Of a stretch of 64,000 bases of DNA, positions 10,488 through 19,817 are shown one piece after another. The stretch comes from Desulfovibrio sp. (GTDB taxonomy: Bacteria > Desulfobacterota > Desulfovibrionia > Desulfovibrionales > Desulfovibrionaceae): NCBI GenBank assembly GCA_016208105.1, contig JACQYS010000019.1:326494-390493 (forward strand), in the 5' to 3' direction. Positions within the stretch are counted from its first letter, which is position 1. Every line of letters begins with the position of its first letter. Under the pieces are notes generated by a model. The model was not told the DNA's origin, searched no databases, and saw only the letters and a program-made list of their open reading frames with translations. A program made the translations under genes and the position numbers.

Positions 10488-10736
10488 ATGCCTACGCCAC
10501 GCTCGATTCGCCACCTCAAGGTCGGCGAGAAGGCTCAAATCGACCGTATAACTGCTGAGGGAGAACTTGGCCGGCGCATCAGGGACATGGGGTTGGTGCC
10601 AGGTGCGGAAGTTGAGGTTGTGGGCAGGGCCCCCCTCAAGGACCCCGTGGCCATTCGCCTGAAAGGATTCACCTTGTCCTTGCGCAACAACGAAGCTGAC
10701 TTCATTTTGATATCGCCTCCGGAGGCCCAGTCGTGA
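10488..10736 (+). CDS. feoA: FeoA ferrous iron transport accessory protein (second copy)
   Basis: An 82-residue FeoA of the ordinary, Cys-free type: LKVGEKAQIDRITAEGELGRRI then RDMGLVPGAEVEVVGRAP and a C-terminal strand FILISPP. The start ATG 10488 follows a GGAGACGG site; a TTG further upstream would run through the palindrome and is rejected. It overlaps feoB by four bases (GTGA), so FeoA2 and FeoB are likely made in step. Two FeoA proteins per operon are common in Desulfovibrio, where they are thought to act together on the FeoB cytoplasmic domain. Confidence 0.92.
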   Translation: MPTPRSIRHLKVGEKAQIDRITAEGELGRRIRDMGLVPGAEVEVVGRAPLKDPVAIRLKGFTLSLRNNEADFILISPPEAQS

Positions 10737-13099
10737 CCCATCTCGATACCCACAAGACAATCGAAGCCAAACCCGGCAAAACCAGCAAGGACGTTATTAG
10801 TTCCTACACCGTGGCCCTGGCCGGGAACCCAAACTCCGGAAAATCCACGCTTTTTAACGCCCTCACCGGCGCCCGGGCCCATGTGGGCAACTATCCCGGC
10901 ATAACCGTGGAGAAAAAGGTCGGCCAGGTTCGCGCAGGGGACGCCATGCTCGAAGTGGTGGACCTTCCCGGAACGTATTCCCTCACCGCCTATTCCGCTG
11001 AAGAGCTTGTCGCGCGAGACTTCCTGGTGGACGAACGCCCCCAGGCCGTTGTGGACGTGGTTAACGCTGGTGCCTTGGAGCGCAACCTCTACTTGGCCGT
11101 ACAGCTTCTGGAACTCGGCTGTCCGGTGGTGCTGGGCCTCAATATGATGGACGAGGCCCGCAAGATGGGCCTTAGGGTCGACTCCAAACGCCTGAGTAAG
11201 CTCTTGGGCTGCCCCGTGGTGGAACTGGTAGCCCGGGTGGGCATGGGTGTTGGCGAACTCGGCCGGGCAGCCGCCGGACTCGCCGCCGAGCGTCAGGGGA
11301 GCTGGAAACCCATGGACATCTCCTATGGCCCGGACCTTGATCCGGCCCTGGCCGAGATGACCACCAAGATCATGAGCAAGTCGCTGCTTACGGCCCGTTA
11401 CCCCGCTCGCTGGGTCGCCCTCAAATACCTGGAGGGCGACGACCAGGTGAAGGAACAGGGACGCCTCGCCGATCCCGAGCTTGCCTCCTGGCTCGAGGCC
11501 AGGGCGCAGGAAGTGGCTGACCATCTCCGCGCCACCTTGGGCACCTACCCTGAAGCCGTGGTGGCCGACTACCGCTATGGCTTCATTGCCTCCATTCTCA
11601 AGGGAGGCGTGGTCACCCGGGACGACCTGGGCGAGCGTATCGCCGTGTCGGACAAGATAGATCTTGTCCTCACCCACAAATTGCTCGGCCCCATCCTCAT
11701 GCTCGGGGTCTTGTACTTAGTATACCAGATCACATTCACATTGGGGAAATTCCCCATGGAGTGGCTCCAGGCTTTCTTCGCCTGGGGTGGCAAGGCCGTG
11801 GAGGCCGGGCTTCCGGACGGCCTGTTGCGGTCGCTCCTGGTGGACGGCATCATCGCTGGCGTGGGCGGCGTCATGGGGTTCGTGCCCCTGGTCATGCTGA
11901 TCTTTCTGCTCATCGCCTTCCTGGAGGACTCCGGCTACATGGCCCGCATCGCCTACATGCTGGACCGGGTCTTCCGTATCTTTGGATTGCACGGCTGCTC
12001 GGTGATGCCCTTCATCATCTCCGGAGGCATCGCCGGTGGTTGCGCCGTGCCCGGGGTCATGGCCAGCCGGACGCTCAGAAGCCCCAAAGAGCGCATAGCA
12101 ACCATACTCACAGCCCCGTTCATGACCTGCGGCGCCAAGCTGCCGGTGTTTATCCTATTAACGAGCGTATTCTTCCCGGAAAAACAAGCCCAGGCCATGT
12201 TCGCCATGACGCTTCTGGGCTGGGCCATGGCTTTGTGCGTCTCCTGGCTGGTGCGCTCCACCGTGGTGAAGGGTGAATCAACCCCCTTTGTCATGGAGCT
12301 GCCCCCGTACCGGCTCCCCACCTGGAGGGGCCTTGGCATCCACACCTGGGAGCGGACCTGGCAGTACATCAAAAAGGCCGGTTCCATGATCCTGGCCGTG
12401 TCCATCGTGGTCTGGGCGGCCATGACCTTCCCCGGCCCGTCCGAAGACAAAACCGCCGCTTTCGAAGCGCAGAAGGCAGAAATCACCGCCAAGATCGAAG
12501 CTCTCGAAGCGGCCGAAGCCAAACCGGAGGCCCCCGCTTCCGAACCTGAGCCGGATGCGGCCAAGGACGGCAACACCAAGCAAGAGATGGCCGGAGACCC
12601 GGAAAAGACAGCCACGCCCAGCGCGGAGGCCGATGAGAACTCGCTTGAGGCGCTCAAGGCCAAACTGGAGGATCTGAACAAAGCCCAGGCCGCCGGCGCC
12701 CTGGCATCGTCCCTGGCCGGCAGGATGGGAATTGCCCTGGAGCCGGTGTCCAAATGGGCCGGATTCGACTGGCGCACCAACATCGCCCTGGTGGGCGGTT
12801 TCGCGGCCAAGGAAGTCATCATTTCCACCCTGGGCACTGCGTACTCACTTGGCAAGGTGGACAAGGAAGACACCGCGCCCCTGGCCGAGATGCTCTCCGC
12901 CGAAGGGCTCAGCATCTCCGCTGGCCTGGCGCTCATGGTGTTCATCCTGCTCTACTCGCCGTGTTTCCCCACAGTTGTGGCCATAGGCAAGGAGACAGGC
13001 TCCTGGAAATGGTCGGCTTTCGCCATAACCTTCAACACCGTTCTCGCCTTCCTGCTGGCCTCTGCCATCTTCCAGGCCGGCACAAAACTGTTCCACTAG
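10733..13099 (+). CDS. feoB: FeoB ferrous iron transporter with an acidic insertion
   Basis: A 788-residue inner-membrane Fe(II) transporter. The N-terminal G domain has GNPNSGKST (residues 31-39), YPGITVE, DLPGTYSL and the guanine-specificity NMMD motif; a helical GDI-like spacer follows to about 270; the membrane core starts near 310 and shows the Cys-containing gate segments GGCAVPGV and MTCGAKLP. Between the core and the last helices lies an extra stretch of about 90 residues (roughly 568-660) rich in Glu, Ala, Lys and Pro, bounded by coiled-coil-like KAEITAKIEALEAAEAK and LEALKAKLEDLNK. Many FeoB proteins have a shorter linker there. The GTG start overlaps feoA2. A strong terminator follows. 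Confidence 0.95.
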   Translation: MTHLDTHKTIEAKPGKTSKDVISSYTVALAGNPNSGKSTLFNALTGARAHVGNYPGITVEKKVGQVRAGDAMLEVVDLPGTYSLTAYSAEELVARDFLVDERPQAVVDVVNAGALERNLYLAVQLLELGCPVVLGLNMMDEARKMGLRVDSKRLSKLLGCPVVELVARVGMGVGELGRAAAGLAAERQGSWKPMDISYGPDLDPALAEMTTKIMSKSLLTARYPARWVALKYLEGDDQVKEQGRLADPELASWLEARAQEVADHLRATLGTYPEAVVADYRYGFIASILKGGVVTRDDLGERIAVSDKIDLVLTHKLLGPILMLGVLYLVYQITFTLGKFPMEWLQAFFAWGGKAVEAGLPDGLLRSLLVDGIIAGVGGVMGFVPLVMLIFLLIAFLEDSGYMARIAYMLDRVFRIFGLHGCSVMPFIISGGIAGGCAVPGVMASRTLRSPKERIATILTAPFMTCGAKLPVFILLTSVFFPEKQAQAMFAMTLLGWAMALCVSWLVRSTVVKGESTPFVMELPPYRLPTWRGLGIHTWERTWQYIKKAGSMILAVSIVVWAAMTFPGPSEDKTAAFEAQKAEITAKIEALEAAEAKPEAPASEPEPDAAKDGNTKQEMAGDPEKTATPSAEADENSLEALKAKLEDLNKAQAAGALASSLAGRMGIALEPVSKWAGFDWRTNIALVGGFAAKEVIISTLGTAYSLGKVDKEDTAPLAEMLSAEGLSISAGLALMVFILLYSPCFPTVVAIGKETGSWKWSAFAITFNTVLAFLLASAIFQAGTKLFH

Positions 13100-13128
13100 G
13101 AACCATACAGCCCCCTCCCACCCCACCT

Positions 13129-13161
13129 GACAGCCCGGCCGTGCCGGGCTGTCCGCGTTTT
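13129..13161 (+). terminator. Terminator of feo operon
   Basis: A perfect 11-bp GC-rich stem (GACAGCCCGGC / GCCGGGCTGTC) with a CGT loop is followed by a short T-rich tail. Confidence 0.8.
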
Positions 13162-13536
13162 CAGCCAGTTCCGGGAGATTTCGAGAGCAGCGTAACCACA
13201 TGGCGTACCCACGTCTCTAGAGGGTGTAGCCCAAAAAACGGATGGCGCGAACTGCCAGCGTTTTCTGTCCCGAATCGCCCAGGGTGGATGAGCCAGTTAG
13301 AGCGGTAACCATGTTCGGGACACATGCAAACCCCGGCTTTGGGTAAAGGAAACACCTTTCGAAGTTCCGGCTTATTCAAACCGGAACCAGACATTGGCGG
13401 AAAAGATGAACTCGGATATGTTTACAGGAGAGAATTTGCTGTGCATTCCATGGCGCACGCCGTACCCTTCGGCTTTGTCGGAGGCAACGCAGGCGGCGTA
13501 GTACGCAGGCAGCCGTCTGGGGGAGGGGAGTCCCCC
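13162..13536 (+). other. Long structured leader of the sigma factor operon
   Basis: No gene is convincing in these 375 bases. Inverted repeats are dense: TGTCCCGAA at 13266-13274 with TTCGGGACA at 13314-13322, a small AAAGG/CCTTT hairpin near 13345-13359, GTTCCGG at 13364-13370 with CCGGAAC at 13381-13387, and a final hairpin on the ribosome-binding site (separate entry). The pattern suggests a long structured 5' leader rather than spacer DNA. I could not match it to a known riboswitch. Confidence 0.4.
13519..13536 (+). promoter_or_regulatory. Hairpin covering the ribosome-binding site of the sigma factor gene
   Basis: GGGGGA-GGGGAG-TCCCCC forms a 6-bp stem with a 6-base loop directly before the ATG at 13537. 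The purine-rich GGAGGGGAG that should act as Shine-Dalgarno lies in the stem and loop, so folding would limit translation. Confidence 0.5.
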
Positions 13537-14172
13537 ATGATTGGCGTAAAAAGCATGAACCAGAGCAAGCGAGCGCAAAGCAAAGACGCCGAGGACGACG
13601 CCAAGACCATAAGGAAGGTTCTGGACGGCGACACGCAGGCCTTTTCGGTACTGGTCAAGCGCCATCAGGACTACCTGTTCGCCCTGCTTCGCCGGCACTT
13701 GCCCGTGTCGGAGGTGGCTGAAGCGGCCCAGGACTCCTTTGTGAAGGCTTTCGAGAAGCTTCACCAACTGCGCGTCCCGGAGTCTTTCCGAGCCTGGCTG
13801 TCGTCACTGGCGCTTAGAAGGGCCATTCGCTATTGGCGCGACGTGTCCGGCAGGCGTGAGGTCTCCATGGACATCGGCGGCCAGGACGACCACGATTGGC
13901 TGGAAGCCTTCATGTCCGAGGACTCCTGGCACCGCCACGACGAACTCGTCCGCAAGCGCGAGGCCAGCTCCGTGGTTACCTGGCTGCTCGGGCACGTGAA
14001 ACCGGAAGACCGCATTGCGCTTGGTCTCTTTTACGCCGGGGATCACGAGATAACGGAAATCGCTGAAATGCTCGGCTGGAGCGTGGAGAAAGTGAAGGTT
14101 CGCTTGCACCGGGCTCGCAAGCTCATGGCCAAGGTCATGCAGGACGAATCTCGTCGAGGGGGAGAGTTATGA
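13537..14172 (+). CDS. ECF-type RNA polymerase sigma factor
   Basis: A 211-residue sigma-70 family protein of ECF type. Region 2 spans about residues 30-100 (VLDGDTQAFSVLVKRHQDYL, FALLRRHLPVSEVAEAAQD, SFVKAFEKL), and region 4 about 140-200 with the DNA-binding helix-turn-helix ITEIAEMLGWSVEKVKVRLH. Start 13537 is preferred because a GGAGGGG sequence lies upstream; ATG 13555 is an alternative. The next gene overlaps by ATGA and encodes a small membrane protein, so this is a classical sigma/anti-sigma arrangement, followed by a Spy-like periplasmic protein. Similar layouts respond to metals or envelope damage, but the signal here is unknown. Confidence 0.88.
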   Translation: MIGVKSMNQSKRAQSKDAEDDAKTIRKVLDGDTQAFSVLVKRHQDYLFALLRRHLPVSEVAEAAQDSFVKAFEKLHQLRVPESFRAWLSSLALRRAIRYWRDVSGRREVSMDIGGQDDHDWLEAFMSEDSWHRHDELVRKREASSVVTWLLGHVKPEDRIALGLFYAGDHEITEIAEMLGWSVEKVKVRLHRARKLMAKVMQDESRRGGEL

Positions 14173-14468
14173 ACGAGGACAAGGTATACCAAAAGCTGGA
14201 CAGGCTGCTCTCGGGGGTATTTGCTCCCCTGGAAGGCGCGGCCGCACCGGGATTCGAGGCCCGGGTCATGGCCAGGATAATGGAAACGCGGCGCGAGCAG
14301 TCGTTCTGGGACTTTCTGCGCGAGGCGGCCAGCCCCATTCTCGTCTCCGGCTGGGCCACTGCCGCGCTGCTGGCTTTCGTGGCCTTGAAAGGCCTGGGGG
14401 AAAGCAGGGACATTGCCCTCGCCGCCCTCGTTAACGGCGATGCTGTGTCGCGCTGGCTTGTACTGTAG
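14169..14468 (+). CDS. Small membrane protein, putative anti-sigma factor
   Basis: A 99-residue protein with a charged N-terminal cytoplasmic part (MNEDKVYQKLDRLLSGVFAP, FEARVMARIMETRREQ) and one membrane helix near residues 58-75 (ILVSGWATAALLAFVAL). It overlaps the sigma factor gene by four bases (ATGA). Size, topology and position fit an anti-sigma factor of the CnrY or short zinc-finger-less type. No HxxxCxxC zinc motif is present. The assignment is by context, as the sequence itself matches no family I recognise. Confidence 0.6.
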   Translation: MNEDKVYQKLDRLLSGVFAPLEGAAAPGFEARVMARIMETRREQSFWDFLREAASPILVSGWATAALLAFVALKGLGESRDIALAALVNGDAVSRWLVL

Positions 14469-14476
14469 GAGGAGGC

Positions 14477-14932
14477 ATGACCAGGAGCAAAGGATGGCTC
14501 ATCGCCATTGCCATTTTTCTCACCGGAGCCGTGGTGGGCGCACTGGGGCTGGATGCCTGGCGCATGCTGCGCGGGGGACCGTTCGGCAAGGTTGAACGCC
14601 TGGGCCCGGCCGGCTTCATCATGGAGCATCTTAGCCGGGAGCTGGGGCTCACCCCCGAGCAACAGTCAAAGATTCGCCCAGTTGTCGATGAGATGGTCGT
14701 CAAGATGGATGAGACCCGCAAACCGTGCATCCAGGAAGATGAAATCCTGTTCGAGCAATACCAATCGAGGATTCATGGAATGCTCCTGCCTGAGCAGGCC
14801 AAACGGCACGACGATCTCCTCGAACGCTTACGGAAATTCCGCAAATTCGGCCCTCCCCCAGGGCCACCGCCAGTACCGCCCTCGCTGTTCGGCCCTCCCC
14901 CAGGGCCGCCACCGGGACCGCCTTCGAACTAA
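14477..14932 (+). CDS. Periplasmic Spy/CnrX/ZraP-like protein with proline-rich tail
   Basis: A 151-residue protein with an N-terminal signal anchor (WLIAIAIFLTGAVVGALGL) and a periplasmic helical part like the LTXXQ/heavy-metal resistance family: FIMEHLSRELGLTPEQQSKI and the helix HGMLLPEQAKRHDDLLERL. It ends in an unusual tandem tail: FGPPPGPPPVPPSL followed by FGPPPGPPPGPPSN, a nearly exact repeat at the DNA level too. In CnrYXH-type systems a periplasmic protein of this fold senses metal and controls the anti-sigma factor; the gene order sigma, membrane protein, periplasmic sensor is compatible with this. Good GGAGGAGG site upstream. A terminator follows. Confidence 0.7.
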   Translation: MTRSKGWLIAIAIFLTGAVVGALGLDAWRMLRGGPFGKVERLGPAGFIMEHLSRELGLTPEQQSKIRPVVDEMVVKMDETRKPCIQEDEILFEQYQSRIHGMLLPEQAKRHDDLLERLRKFRKFGPPPGPPPVPPSLFGPPPGPPPGPPSN

Positions 14933-14974
14933 GTCTCCTCCCCTGCGGGCCTTTCCCAGGGAGGCTCGCAAACG

Positions 14975-15008
14975 AAAGGCCTCACGTGTCCATGCGTGGG
15001 GCCTTTTT
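14975..15008 (+). terminator. Terminator of sigma factor operon
   Basis: A 12-bp stem (AAAGGCCTCACG / CGTGGGGCCTTT, one G-T pair) with an 8-base loop is followed by a T run. Confidence 0.8.
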
Positions 15009-15054
15009 GGCGTTCAGACGCCGAATCTGTAAGGAAAACGGGTCGCAGGAAGAC

Positions 15055-15501
15055 TCAGGCCGCGCTTCTGCCTTTCTTGCGGCAGGTTGGGCAGATTCCG
15101 TAGAGGTACATTTTGTGGCGGGTCAATTTGAATCCATGCCGGTTGGCGACTTCCTCCTGGAGCTTCTCGATGGTCTCGTCCAGGACTTCCACGTTCTTTC
15201 CGCAATGCTCGCAGATAAGGTGGTCGTGGTGGTCGTTGCCGTGCTGGCGCTCATAGCGGGTCACTCCGTCGCCAAAATCGACTTCCTTTGCGATGCCTGC
15301 CCCTGAGAGAAGCTTGAGCGTCCGGTAGACGGTAGCTTGACCGATGGTCTTGTAACTTGACTTGACCTTCTCGTAGAGTTCCTCGGAAGTGACATGTCCC
15401 TCCTGTCCGAGAAAGACATCCAGAATGTGCCGTCTCTGCGGAGTCATCTTGAGCCGCTGTTGGGCTACATAGTCGGCGAAGAGGACGTGGGCGTCTTGCA
15501 T
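15055..15501 (-). CDS. fur: Fur-family metal-responsive regulator
   Basis: A 148-residue Fur superfamily repressor. The winged helix includes RLKMTPQRRHILDVFL and the recognition region GQATVYRTLKLLSGAGI; the metal-binding part has HGNDHHDHLICEHCGK and a C-terminal CPTC, the two CxxC pairs for structural zinc. Fur, Zur and PerR share this plan; proximity to a feo operon with Fur-like boxes (5 kb away) favours Fur but is not proof. Start ATG 15501 is chosen because it gives the standard N-terminus and has GGAG upstream; the frame continues upstream without a good site. It is convergent with the sigma operon and close behind a cyclic-nucleotide-binding gene on the same strand. Confidence 0.88.
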   Translation of the reverse strand: MQDAHVLFADYVAQQRLKMTPQRRHILDVFLGQEGHVTSEELYEKVKSSYKTIGQATVYRTLKLLSGAGIAKEVDFGDGVTRYERQHGNDHHDHLICEHCGKNVEVLDETIEKLQEEVANRHGFKLTRHKMYLYGICPTCRKKGRSAA

Positions 15502-15607
15502 CAAGGGCTCCCGCGCAATTTTTAGGCACGTATCCGGGAAGGTGCCGGGTGTCAAACAGCTCCTCGACGGATGCACTTGCCGGCGTTGGAGCAGAAAATC
15601 CAGGACG

Positions 15608-16135
15608 CTAGAACAGCGTCAGGCCGAAATCCTGACCCAGTGCCGCGAATTCGGAGGGATGGCGGGTCACAAACCGTTCCTCCCAGGCCAAAAGATGCTC
15701 GGCCAGGGATTGAAGCAATGCCGGCTCCACCTGCTGGAAGCGCTGCACGGTTTTTAAGTATTTCTCCCTGCTAAGCATCATCACCGCAGTCTGCTCCACG
15801 GCGCGCACCGAGTAGAGGCTCCTGCCGCCAAGGATGAGAGCCAGGCCGCCGAAGGAATCCCCCTTGCCGAGGTCCTTAACCCTTACTGCGGCGCCATCGA
15901 CTTGGCGCGAGACTTCTGCCCGTCCGCAGGTCAGATAGTAAAACGATTCGGCGTGCTCCCCCTGGCGGACCAGATAGTCCCCAGGCAGGAAGGTTTCGGC
16001 CCGGCAAAGGTAGGCCAGGACCTTGCACACATCCAGCGGCACCCTGGAGAACAGGGGCAGGCCGCGCATGATGTCCAGAAAATCGCTGTAACCGCAGGCG
16101 CTATCCGCCGATTTTTGGTCCGTGGACGAGCTCAT
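15608..16135 (-). CDS. Cyclic-nucleotide-binding domain protein
   Basis: A 175-residue protein made almost wholly of a CAP/cNMP-binding domain: LPLFSRVPLDVCKVLAYLC, then ETFLPGDYLVRQGEHAESFYY and DLGKGDSFGGLALILGGRSLYSVRA. The phosphate-binding cassette is GDSFGGLAL...RSLYSVRA, where an Arg or other residue normally contacts the nucleotide phosphate; the pattern is recognisable but not canonical (E-to-G change in GE). No helix-turn-helix follows, so this is not a Crp-type regulator. The gene overlaps the end of the ABC exporter gene by 35 bases, with its own AAGGGG site within that gene. It probably senses a nucleotide or serves as a regulatory subunit for the exporter. Confidence 0.82.
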   Translation of the reverse strand: MSSSTDQKSADSACGYSDFLDIMRGLPLFSRVPLDVCKVLAYLCRAETFLPGDYLVRQGEHAESFYYLTCGRAEVSRQVDGAAVRVKDLGKGDSFGGLALILGGRSLYSVRAVEQTAVMMLSREKYLKTVQRFQQVEPALLQSLAEHLLAWEERFVTRHPSEFAALGQDFGLTLF

Positions 16136-18641
16136 AGAGCATCCCCTTCCTGTCCATAAGCTCCTGGTAGGAGCCTGTTTCAACTATTTGTCCGGCCTTC
16201 ATGACCGCGATTTTGTCGTAGCCCTTAATGGTATCCAGGCGGTGGATCACGGCGATCACCGTAGACTTGCCCTTCCACTTTGAGTCCAAAAGATTCTGGA
16301 TGCGGGTCTGGGAGGCGTTGTCCAATGCCGCCGTGGCCTCGTCCAGCAAAAGAAGGGGCGGTTCCTTGAGAAACGCCCTGGCCAGGGCGACCTTCTGGCG
16401 CTGCCCTCCGGAGAGCCTGTCTCCCTGGGTCCCCACCTGGAAATCGAGCCCAAGTTCCACCATGCGCTCCAGCATATCCTCTTTGATGAGCAGCATGATG
16501 ATGGTCTTGTTCACCGTATCCAAGACCTTGGAGCTTTCGCTCTTGAGTTTTCCGAAAAGGATGTTGTCCAGAATGGTCTGGGAGTGGATGTAGTTGTCCC
16601 GGCGATAGAACGTGATCTTGTCCGGGGCTTTGGAGGTTATATGCGCCATGAACGAAGCCCTGCCCGAGAGCAGCATGCGTTCGGACACGGCCGGAAGAGC
16701 GGCAAGGGTATGAATACCAGGAGTGAAGCGCAAAGCGAGGTTGAGAAGCATTCCGCGTTCGTCCTCGGACAGATCCCCCACCCCGGAGCGGTCCAGACGC
16801 TCGGCCAGTTGGGAGTATGCTTCGAATTCCTCCAAGAACATCGGGCTCTGCTCGAAGAAGGAGGCGTCCGCTCCTGGGACGTTCTTCAATATGTCCACGG
16901 TCTGGATCGTCAATTCGCGTCCCAGTTCCAAAAGCATCAGGGTGAGACCTGTTTCCTTCAAGAATGCGAGGAACTCTGGGTTTCTGGGCAGGTTCTCCGG
17001 CAGGTAGGAATCATCGTTGGGGTTGCCGAAAACCAGGTTGGCTGCAACGGAAGAATACTGCAGGTAGCGGCCCTCATCGAAGAACTCCACCTTGTTCTTG
17101 AGTTCTTCGCCCTGCTCTTCGTAGTAGGCCTCCCTGATGGCGATGAGCTTCTCCACCAGGTGTTCCTTTTTGCCCTTGCGGAACACCGTGTTCAGCCCGA
17201 ACCGCAGGACATCCAGGAACAGGCCAACCTGCTGGATGACTTCGATGAGCCGGTCCAGACTCGGTTCGTTCTGAGTAGGGTCGACCCCCTTGTCCACGTT
17301 TCGCGAGTTGACCGAGTAAAGCAGATTCTCCTTGATTGACCCCTCGAAAATGAAGGGCTGCTGGGGCACGAAACCCATGTTTTCGGCAAGATCGGACTTG
17401 GCCATGTCCGCGATCTCATGCCCGGCCAGCCGGCACTGGCCCGACGAATACTTGTATATCTGGGCGATGCACAGGGCCAGGGTGGATTTTCCCGACCCGG
17501 AGAATCCCACCAGGGCCAGATGCTCGCCCGGCTCCACGGACACTGACACACCCTTCAAGAGCTTGATGCCGCCCTGGGCCTCCATGACCAGATCCTTCAC
17601 GTCGATCTTGCCCGGCAAGGTGAGCGGTGCGCGCTGTTCGGCAGGCTCCAGGGTGAACTCGCAGTCCTCAGCGAAATACTCCATCACCCGGTTGTAGCTC
17701 ACGGTTGCGTCCTGCCAGGACTGGTAGAAATCCATGAGCTCCTTCCAAGGGTCGTAGAGCTTCTCATTGGCCGAGAGAAAGGCCACCAGGGCGCCAAGGT
17801 CGAAACGCCCGTTGATGGCCAACCAGCCTCCCACCAGAAAGAGCACGAACGGCCCGAGGGACTGGAAAAAATTGTTGGAGTTCTTGATGCCGAACTTCCA
17901 CAGATTCCATCGGACACGGACCTTGAACTGCTTGTCCGTAACATCCCCGAAGCGGTTGTTCTCATGGCGGAATGAGGCGTTCCCATGGATTTCATGGATG
18001 CCGGAAACGGTCTCCCCGATCATGGTGGACATCTTGCGGCCAATGTCCACCCGCTCCCGGTTGGCCGCGTTGGAACGCTTCTGCATCATGGGCACGAAGA
18101 TGAGCGCCAGGGGGTAGAGGATCATGGACAGTCCGGCCATGAGGGGATTCAAGTAAAAAAGGTACCCGGCAAAGGCCAGAAGCGTCAGGATGTTTGTAAC
18201 CGGCACAGCTATGGCCTGGCCGATGAAGTCCCCGGCATTGGCCACTTCGGTGACCAGGGAGGACACGATCATGCCCGGGCTGGCCTTGCGGAAAAAATTG
18301 ATGGGGAGAGTGAGGATGTGCGCGTAGAGTTTCTTGCGCATCTCAGCCAGGGCTTCCTGCCCAATGTAGGTCTGTAGCGCGTTGATGGCGAACTTGAGAG
18401 CCGATCCTGAGACCACGGCGGCCAGATAATAACCGCAATACAAAAGCAGAAGGTTTACCTTCTGCTCGCCGATAGCTTCATTGATTATCTTCTTCTGCAT
18501 CTCCAGGGGCAGAACCCTGATGGACACCGTGACCACGATGACCAAGAGCAGAATCAGTTGGAGCTTCAGATTGCTGGTAAGCACCCATGAAAACAGAGAG
18601 CGCTGGTACAGCTTGTCGGGAAGCTTCGGGTTTAAGCGCAT
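16101..18641 (-). CDS. ABC exporter (membrane and ATPase fused) with a large insertion in the ATPase domain
   Basis: An 846-residue half-exporter. Residues about 1-340 are the six-helix ABC transmembrane type-1 domain. The ATPase domain starts near 345 with Walker A GFSGSGKST (about 378-386) and Q-loop FVPQQPFIFEGS; the signature RLSGGQRQKVALARAFL comes only near 740, and Walker B LLLLDEATAALD near 768. Ordinary exporters have about 105 residues between Walker A and signature; here about 360. The extra 250 residues are helical and acidic, and the usual post-Q-loop motif appears three times (KENLLYS, AANLVFG, LDNILFG). Substrate unknown. Start ATG 18641 has GGAAGG upstream; an ATG 15 bases earlier lacks spacing. 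It is co-transcribed with the cyclic-nucleotide-binding protein. Confidence 0.85.
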   Translation of the reverse strand: MRLNPKLPDKLYQRSLFSWVLTSNLKLQLILLLVIVVTVSIRVLPLEMQKKIINEAIGEQKVNLLLLYCGYYLAAVVSGSALKFAINALQTYIGQEALAEMRKKLYAHILTLPINFFRKASPGMIVSSLVTEVANAGDFIGQAIAVPVTNILTLLAFAGYLFYLNPLMAGLSMILYPLALIFVPMMQKRSNAANRERVDIGRKMSTMIGETVSGIHEIHGNASFRHENNRFGDVTDKQFKVRVRWNLWKFGIKNSNNFFQSLGPFVLFLVGGWLAINGRFDLGALVAFLSANEKLYDPWKELMDFYQSWQDATVSYNRVMEYFAEDCEFTLEPAEQRAPLTLPGKIDVKDLVMEAQGGIKLLKGVSVSVEPGEHLALVGFSGSGKSTLALCIAQIYKYSSGQCRLAGHEIADMAKSDLAENMGFVPQQPFIFEGSIKENLLYSVNSRNVDKGVDPTQNEPSLDRLIEVIQQVGLFLDVLRFGLNTVFRKGKKEHLVEKLIAIREAYYEEQGEELKNKVEFFDEGRYLQYSSVAANLVFGNPNDDSYLPENLPRNPEFLAFLKETGLTLMLLELGRELTIQTVDILKNVPGADASFFEQSPMFLEEFEAYSQLAERLDRSGVGDLSEDERGMLLNLALRFTPGIHTLAALPAVSERMLLSGRASFMAHITSKAPDKITFYRRDNYIHSQTILDNILFGKLKSESSKVLDTVNKTIIMLLIKEDMLERMVELGLDFQVGTQGDRLSGGQRQKVALARAFLKEPPLLLLDEATAALDNASQTRIQNLLDSKWKGKSTVIAVIHRLDTIKGYDKIAVMKAGQIVETGSYQELMDRKGMLYELVHGPKIGG

Positions 18642-18983
18642 GGCGGGGCCTTCCATCCTTGTTTGTCCCGTGATGCCCCGAAAATGGCCTGTTGGCAACC
18701 GCCGGAGACATAATCTTCTGTATTTCGCTTAAATACCAAGGTTATGGCGCTCCAACGACTGCGGAGCAGACTGTACACTCCACTGCGGGCATTTACCTTC
18801 ACCAAACATTCACAGCGGTTAGACCTATAGAAAAACGCTGGAACAACCAGGGGATTGATAACACCCAGCTCCTCTCAGTCGCTGCGTCATGGCCGGAACG
18901 CACTTCAAGCACCAGCCGTGACATGGCGAACTCCATCCTGTAGAGTTGGGTGCAACCTTGTTCTCTCCAGGCCGGAGGCCTAC
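18642..18983. other. Divergent intergenic region
   Basis: No gene is seen in 342 bases between the divergently transcribed ABC exporter and GGDEF genes. It presumably holds both promoters; I could not identify clear -35/-10 pairs. Confidence 0.3.
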
Positions 18984-19817
18984 ATGCCGAAAGTCGCCCT
19001 GCCCAGGCTGCGGACGTGGTGGTCCGACAGAATCATCTCCATGCGCCGCGACAAGAGCCGCACGGCGTTCATGGGCATCCTCTACCTGGTGGGCATCGGC
19101 TGGCTGGATTACGCGACAGGCTATGAGATCAACCTTACCGTGGTCTACGTCACGCCCCTCATCATGCTCACCGTTGCCGGAGGCTGGCGCGTCGGGGTGT
19201 TTACGGCCATTGCCTGTGCGATCACCACCGAAGGGGCGGACTACCTGGCAGGCAGGCGCTTCGACCAGGACATCTACCACGTCTACAGCATGGCCTCCCA
19301 CTGTTTGTCGTATCTGTCCTTTCTTCTGCTCATAACCCAGCTTCTCATGCTCTATGACAGGGAACACGACTTAGCCGGGCTGGACCCTCTGACCGGGCTT
19401 AAGAATCGTCACGGCTTTCTCGCCAGGGCTGAAGACGTGCTCAGCGATTGCGTAAGGCGAAAAAAAACGGCCACTATGCTTGTGGTGAACGTAGGCAATC
19501 TCCGCAAGATCAACTCGGCCCATGGGCACGACAAGGCCGACGCCCTGATCTTAAGTTCGGCGAACGTGTTGCGCGAACTGTTCCCCCACGCCGTGCTGGC
19601 GAGACTTGGAGCGGACAGGTTCGCGGCGCTTATCGCTGGTGAGAGTTCCCCAGATGGGGCGGACATGCTGAACACGGCCCTGGAGCGAGCGGCGCAACAG
19701 CTTGAGGTGGTCGTTAATCCCCGCCAAGCTTCAACGGCCCTTTCCCCGTTGCACCGCACCCCGGACGAAATAGCGGCCCAAATGGACACCCTGCAGGATG
19801 GGGTCAGAAAGCTCTAA
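18984..19817 (+). CDS. Membrane protein with degenerate GGDEF domain
   Basis: A 277-residue protein. Residues about 26-125 form three to four membrane helices (GILYLVGIGWLDYATGY, LTVVYVTPLIMLTV, VGVFTAIACAITTEGADYL, LSFLLLITQLLML). The cytoplasmic part resembles a diguanylate cyclase domain: DPLTGLKNRHGF, then LVVNVGNLRKINSAHGHDKAD, but the active-site loop reads GADRF (209-213) instead of GGDEF, and the metal Asp of the first strand is Asn (VVNVGN). It therefore should not make c-di-GMP and may bind a nucleotide or serve as a sensor partner. GGAGG lies upstream of ATG 18984. Next to a histidine kinase/regulator pair on the same strand. Confidence 0.85.
   Translation: MPKVALPRLRTWWSDRIISMRRDKSRTAFMGILYLVGIGWLDYATGYEINLTVVYVTPLIMLTVAGGWRVGVFTAIACAITTEGADYLAGRRFDQDIYHVYSMASHCLSYLSFLLLITQLLMLYDREHDLAGLDPLTGLKNRHGFLARAEDVLSDCVRRKKTATMLVVNVGNLRKINSAHGHDKADALILSSANVLRELFPHAVLARLGADRFAALIAGESSPDGADMLNTALERAAQQLEVVVNPRQASTALSPLHRTPDEIAAQMDTLQDGVRKL

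Follow-up and report, generated by a model that had tools for sequence, protein, structure and literature searches.

An ABC exporter family with a triplicated helical lobe and a cyclic-nucleotide-fold partner in Desulfobacterota and Alphaproteobacteria

The helical lobe of the nucleotide-binding domain (NBD) couples ATP binding to transport in ATP-binding cassette (ABC) proteins, and large insertions in this region, between the Q-loop and the signature motif, are found in Rad50/SMC and UvrA, where they form coiled coils or DNA-binding modules of soluble proteins. The gene considered here lies at 16101-18641 on the minus strand of a 64,000-nucleotide stretch of Desulfovibrio sp. DNA (GenBank assembly GCA_016208105.1, contig JACQYS010000019.1, positions 326,494 to 390,493), hereafter called the window, and its open reading frame (ORF) translates into an ABC exporter of 846 residues whose insertion, unlike those just mentioned, is made of copies of the lobe itself. 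As in the type IV exporters MsbA, Sav1866 and TAP1, a PF00664 transmembrane domain (TMD) is joined to a PF00005 NBD that has all catalytic motifs and the full NBD fold; unlike them, the protein has about 260 extra residues with two further lobe copies, a near-constant partner with the cyclic-nucleotide-binding (cNMP) fold, and a score far below the MsbA cut-off. A cNMP-fold domain attached to an ABC exporter is also found in HetC of Nostoc. According to the available text of PMC10986499, this N-terminal domain is needed in vivo and bound ppGpp, and cAMP gave no significant protection or stabilisation. HetC is thereby a precedent for an exporter whose cNMP-fold domain is indispensable and has ppGpp as a ligand. 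HetC combines its sensor with a C39 peptidase, whereas here the sensor is a downstream gene or a C-terminal fusion, the NBD carries the insertion, and none of the seven families that Pfam reports at E up to 0.1 is a peptidase; without an N-terminal C39 domain by Pfam, the protein was not classed as a HetC-like peptidase-containing exporter. Literature searches, several of them narrow and thus not showing absence from print, returned no description of an exporter with a triplicated lobe. The available text of PMC10945364 refers once to S. meliloti SMb20813 as a homologue of msbA, without this gene being shown to belong to the family, and pRL110056, mentioned in the available text of PMC11103875, could not be tied to the R. 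johnstonii cluster described below.

The Walker A lysine (K385) and the signature serine (S744) of the window exporter are 359 residues apart, in agreement with the distance of about 360, instead of about 105, reported by a first-pass annotation of the window that had also given the gene's coordinates correctly. The same distance is 98-100 residues in seven ordinary exporters (E. coli MsbA, MdlA and MdlB, one protein from R. johnstonii and three from the window's own genome), 352-372 in 35 Desulfobacterota homologues and 385-398 in 12 alphaproteobacterial homologues. Within the excess of about 260 residues the Q-loop/helical-lobe segment recurs twice, copy 3 being offset from copy 2 by 158. 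Copy 1 (residues 420-484, 17190-17384; coordinates within the exporter gene refer to the minus strand throughout) contains the Q-loop with Q427 and the first helical segment. Copy 2 (residues 493-585, 16887-17165) has a helix with R503, a strand at 518-520, the stretch from N535 to G539 and helices at 555-585. It is followed by a helical spacer without repeat signal (residues 586-650, 16692-16886) and then by copy 3 (residues 651-735, 16437-16691), with a helix containing R661, a strand at 676-678 and the stretch from N693 to G697, after which comes the signature. The post-Q-loop motif that had been noticed three times indeed aligns gap-free over 22 residues (MGFVPQQPFIFEGSIKENLLYS, VEFFDEGRYLQYSSVAANLVFG and ITFYRRDNYIHSQTILDNILFG in copies 1, 2 and 3, respectively), in the same register as the profile alignments.

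Repeat profiles were built from residues 414-511, 512-600 and 668-746 of the 35 homologues, segments that do not overlap, and were compared by HHalign. The probabilities obtained were 84% for copies 1 and 2, 92% for copies 1 and 3 and 97% for copies 2 and 3, against 42%, 7% and 6%, respectively, for the best of 40 column shuffles per pair and at most 6% for six other segments of the same protein taken as controls. The 12 alphaproteobacterial proteins alone, used as a replicate, gave 85%, 82% and 98% for the same pairs, with none of the 40 shuffles as high. Residues 601-667 of the spacer region reached at most 5.7% against copies 1-3, and a match of copy 2 to its neighbouring segment (35.6% over six columns) was discarded because those six residues are common to both segments. 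When profiles were compared with the Q-loop-to-signature region of the seven generic exporters, copies 1, 2 and 3 scored 98.0%, 81.6% and 96.7% (residues 546-655, taken as a control, 0.1%), and copies 1 and 3 of the alphaproteobacterial proteins 96.7% and 83.2%. A self-alignment of the kind proposed earlier gave the same picture: among 445 ungapped self-offsets of residues 500-590, +158 alone was clearly high (score +17), the offset of -96 coming second but barely (-23 versus -26 for the next). Judged by these profiles, the helical lobe of the NBD is copied twice in tandem, giving a cytoplasmic array of three related modules between Q-loop and signature, and the earlier proposal of growth by internal duplication is upheld against shuffles in both clades, with modest support from structure.

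The monomer of the exporter was modelled by AlphaFold2 (AF2) with a mean predicted local distance difference test score (pLDDT) of 83.5, the weak spots falling mainly in the TMD and the termini, and residues 441-740 score between 78 and 94 by ten-residue block. The NBD of TAP1 can be superposed on this model over 251 of its 254 residues (Z 31.0, root-mean-square deviation 2.5 Å), from which the NBD fold is predicted to be otherwise complete around the lobe array. Among solved structures searched by sequence, the best 60 of 599 matches each fall in two or more stretches, and in none of these 60 does the best stretch span the insertion. Copy 2 together with the spacer (residues 486-672) folded alone with a mean pLDDT of 84.2. 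In a second look (VIA) at the 564 chains of the Foldseek list for isolated copy 2, the first twelve rows are all ABC proteins, eleven of them at Z 6.2-4.2; the twelfth, at 3.5, hardly differs from the first unrelated row (3.4), and for a helical model even 6.2 may reflect only a common arrangement. Seven of these rows are NBD1 of CFTR, so that the twelve stand for five proteins (CFTR, MRP1, ComA, MsbA and ABCB6). The best rows cover about 72 residues at 2.5 Å and map onto CFTR 494-565 and MRP1 714-786, which by the numbering of these proteins is the lobe between Q-loop and signature; the aligned residues of copy 2 are scattered over 143 model residues. The fold comparison of copy 2 agrees modestly with a lobe copy (VIA Z up to 6.2), and the failure of the repeats to align structurally, which the first-pass annotation had named as telling against duplication, was not observed.

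Around the lobe array, the protein is by its domains and motifs a type IV ABC exporter of a distinct family, with TMD and NBD fused in one chain. The TMD (residues ~13-330, 17652-18605) matches PF00664 at residues 50-290 with 91 bits (cut-off 28; E 1.4e-25) and is modelled by AF2 as helices from 16 to 322, with low confidence at 158-177 and 283-296, while the NBD matches PF00005 with 102 bits (cut-off 25; E 5.4e-29), split into two stretches. The motifs of Walker A (GFSGSGKST, residues 379-387, 17481-17507), Q-loop, signature (LSGGQ, residues 743-747, 16401-16415), Walker B (LLLLDE, residues 763-768, 16338-16355) and H-loop (H800, 16242-16244) are all present and invariant in the 35 aligned Desulfobacterota homologues, including K385, S744, G745, G746, Q747, D767, E768 and H800. 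The kept catalytic residues argue for ATP turnover in these proteins. The window exporter is presumably a homodimer, and ATP-driven export of a substrate would be expected of a type IV exporter. Of the NCBIfam models the MsbA lipid A exporter (TIGR02203) fits best, yet with 312 bits versus an equivalog cut-off of 602 the assignment was rejected.

The survey covered the window's phylum and plasmid records, the latter being the sole source of Alphaproteobacteria; the label Desulfobacterota is taken from the titles of named relatives. The insertion is present in 28 of 395 genomes of the phylum, the window's included, and in 27 of 28 loci taken from genome contigs, L066 (in our numbering of loci) being a generic ABC match. 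In tblastn searches the window insertion matched 85 plasmid records and a rhizobial insertion 262, mostly from Rhizobium (144) and Sinorhizobium (80), with Azospirillum, Ruegeria, Sulfitobacter and others among the rest; from the plasmid matches 12 alphaproteobacterial loci were chosen for study. In a tree constructed without the insertion columns, by a quick method that carries a long-branch warning, the 47 insertion-bearing proteins (35 from Desulfobacterota and 12 from Alphaproteobacteria) stand apart from the seven generic exporters, the dividing branch having an SH-aLRT support of 100%, and on this topology the insertion-bearing exporters of both groups are one family. The 35 Desulfobacterota rows group together at only 63%, and L034 branches at the base of the family, its position relative to the alphaproteobacterial clade not being settled by the tree. 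Relatives conserve the insertion, and its disruption in them, another outcome named in advance as adverse, was not the rule, the one broken copy seen being in L064, a contig of a metagenome-assembled genome in which the exporter frame is split into two overlapping ORFs, perhaps by a sequencing or assembly frameshift.

Conservation of key residues in the repeats outlasts that of the catalytic sites. All 47 proteins of the two clades, the 12 with a decayed ATPase among them, share R503, N535, R661, N693 and G697, and 44 share G539. In those 12 alphaproteobacterial proteins the Walker A Lys, the Walker B Asp and the Walker B Glu are each kept once, and the Q-loop Gln, the signature Ser and the H-loop His never. 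All six of these residues are lost in ten proteins, L067 retaining the Asp and L078 the Lys and Glu. That relatives keep the extra lobes despite a decayed motor suggests that these lobes have a job of their own.

The gene that overlaps the end of the exporter gene by 35 bases, called a cyclic-nucleotide-binding gene in the first-pass annotation, encodes a cNMP-fold protein of 175 residues (15608-16135, minus strand; PF00027 with 62.3 bits, cut-off 27.5, E 4.4e-17). Its ATG at 16135 lies inside the exporter gene and is preceded by the Shine-Dalgarno-like GGAAGGGGAT at 16141-16150, so that translational coupling is likely. Besides PF00027, Pfam reports nothing for this protein at E up to 0.1, no helix-turn-helix DNA-binding domain being found, and a CRP/FNR transcription factor, which has such a domain at the C-terminus, was rejected. 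The partner weakly resembles TIGR03896, 'bacteriocin-type transport-associated protein' (E 1.7e-05), a cNMP-fold protein tied to transport by its family name, but is not a member (24.3 bits versus a cut-off of 161). In 55 of 56 Desulfobacterota loci (26/26 and 29/30 in two sets), the exporter gene is followed directly on its own strand by a homologue of the partner, which overlaps it or is no more than 100 bases away; six exporters being counted twice, this amounts to 49 of 50 distinct exporters, that of the window included. In the Alphaproteobacteria a separate downstream PF00027 ORF follows the exporter in seven of the 12 loci (L068-L072, L075 and L076), and in four others (L073, L074, L077 and L078) Pfam places PF00027 at the C-terminus of the exporter itself. 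This combination of adjacency and fusion supports a working link between exporter and partner.

What the partner may sense is a separate matter. At the positions of the phosphate-binding cassette that carry the pocket Glu and Arg in canonical cNMP-binding proteins, the window partner has Gly and Ser instead, with an Arg one position earlier, and was consequently not classed as a canonical cNMP-binding protein. The pocket Glu is absent from 48 of the 50 distinct Desulfobacterota partners, where Gly, Ala, Ser or Thr replaces it; L031 has kept the Glu and not the Arg, and L034 has a full ATPase plus a canonical pocket. By contrast, all 11 cNMP domains found in Alphaproteobacteria retain the acidic residue and the Arg. 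As read from these alignments, the two lineages are mirror images of decay: Desulfobacterota keep the ATPase and have mostly lost the pocket Glu, whereas Alphaproteobacteria have mostly lost the ATPase and keep the pocket. It is improbable that the sensor of the window responds to cAMP or cGMP in the classical manner. The earlier suggestion of a nucleotide-regulated exporter therefore holds in part: the link with the partner finds support, and regulation by cAMP or cGMP is weakened for the window's clade by the missing Glu.

We lean, tentatively, towards an exporter family in which the triplicated lobe array is a regulatory platform working with the cNMP-fold subunit. Sitting on the lobe by which NBD and TMD are coupled, the array would serve as a platform for docking and relay; the co-translated cNMP-fold protein would engage the exporter as a regulatory subunit, probably at this array, and, on a small ligand or a partner signal, would gate its ATPase or its transport. 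Array and sensor would together make up the functional core. Some alphaproteobacterial relatives have the same kind of domain fused at the C-terminus, and cAMP or cGMP in the standard binding mode is an unlikely ligand for the window's clade. Several points weigh against this reading, beside the reservation on fold similarity given above. Complex formation, docking site and gating are conjectural, and the cNMP-fold protein may bind a surface other than the insertion; the exporter model is a monomer. Isolated copy 2 has no Foldseek match in the PDB at E <= 0.001, and copy 2 of the alphaproteobacterial proteins matches generic exporters only weakly (41.6%). The exporter of L030 has the insertion and no cNMP gene within its flank of about 1 kb, and no annotated neighbour of Methylobacterium L067 is such a gene. 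The two genes might be adjacent through nothing but shared regulation, against which the fusions argue. Overall, the insertion is the least conserved region, its mean pairwise identity within Desulfobacterota being 38.7%, whereas TMD and NBD cores reach 57.0% and 53.4/66.7%; between clades the figures are 22.6%, 29.5% and 26.8/27.5%, respectively, so that only its key residues are exceptionally kept. Finally, class III cyclases are hardly commoner in insertion-bearing genomes (23/28) than overall (307/395), and give no clear signal.

The scarcity of kept residues in copies 2 and 3, which are few and structural-looking (Arg, Asn, Gly) and form no obvious binding patch, would fit an insertion with a structural or dimerisation role, or one that works as a substrate-access lid; the cNMP-fold protein would then have another site of action, perhaps the TMD or the NBD core, and would be linked to the insertion by descent only. 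Persistence of the insertion without an adjacent cNMP gene (L030 and L067) points the same way, whereas pairing in 49 of 50 distinct Desulfobacterota exporters and the four alphaproteobacterial fusions do not, even if the tie between insertion and partner is inseparable here from common descent; we regard this explanation as doubtful. The decay of the motor in 12 alphaproteobacterial proteins whose repeat residues stay raises another thought, namely that the family is mainly a membrane signalling protein with the ABC scaffold as receptor or switch, as in the SUR proteins, and not a pump, ATP turnover being optional and lost in Alphaproteobacteria. Signalling genes nearby, such as class III cyclases at three alphaproteobacterial loci and STAS/HATPase_c_2 genes in Desulfobacterota, would accord with it, but every catalytic residue is kept in the 35 Desulfobacterota proteins, and the decayed proteins could instead pair with an active half-transporter; we regard this reading as quite unlikely. 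That the exporter is an ordinary one of lipid-A type, its insertion neutral and its neighbour gene unrelated, has in its favour only that MsbA is the best NCBIfam model, below its cut-off as already said, and is very improbable in view of invariant residues of the insertion in two phyla, the fully supported branch separating the family from generic exporters, and the adjacency and fusion of the partner.

Returning to the regulatory platform, one may extend it, at the price of becoming unlikely, to an undescribed ABC family in which the triplicated lobe and the cNMP-fold subunit form a membrane signalling switch, lobe array and sensor being the constant core from which Alphaproteobacteria discarded the engine and Desulfobacterota the ligand pocket, so that in one lineage the scaffold became a regulator or receptor. 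A natural tandem triplication of the lobe in a full-length exporter, with key residues that outlast the ATPase, is a test case for roles of the lobe beyond catalysis. With a sensor paired or fused to it, direct control of an exporter by a ligand can be put to the test here, and the opposite losses of engine and pocket have left two lineages in which the functions are naturally separated.

The neighbourhoods were studied by direct sequence searches for partner, STAS and HATPase genes, which replaced a clustering of neighbours at 18 loci that was confounded by shadow ORFs (exporter grouped in 15/18, partner in 7/18). In R. johnstonii (L079, pRL11) the exporter and partner genes are the last of a same-strand run whose annotation also shows a class III cyclase, an Opp-type importer and three glycosyltransferases (cyclase and importer ATPase also by Pfam). 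L078 has a class III cyclase just upstream by Pfam, and Phyllobacterium (L075) an annotated one about 5 kb away; at these three loci the cyclases accompany an ATPase-decayed exporter and a canonical cNMP domain. Genes of the STAS (RsbV-like) and/or HATPase_c_2 (RsbW-like) families flank the cassette in 15 of the 27 long and eight of the 30 short Desulfobacterota loci (L030, L045-L053, L055-L059, L063 and L017-L023), and may, from their families, act by partner-switching. In L030, which lacks the cNMP gene, they occupy the position directly downstream; none was found beside the window cassette within the ~1.5 kb searched. A protein of about 200 residues with a signal-peptide-like start is encoded just downstream of the cNMP gene in five Desulfovibrio/Desulfovibrionales loci (L048:6957-7613, L049:6601-7656 (ORF), L051:6984-7616, L053:6584-7648 (ORF) and L059:7010-7621), the three in-frame sequences (L048, L051 and L059) having no Pfam match. 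In the window itself, a GGDEF-domain gene recognized by Pfam (18855-19817, plus strand) is divergent from the exporter, and its signature reads GADRF, which makes activity doubtful. On the other side of the cassette, the region 10733-15576 contains a Fur-family gene (PF01475), an ECF-sigma-like gene read from sequence and a gene that we take to be FeoB-like, possibly an iron or metal context.

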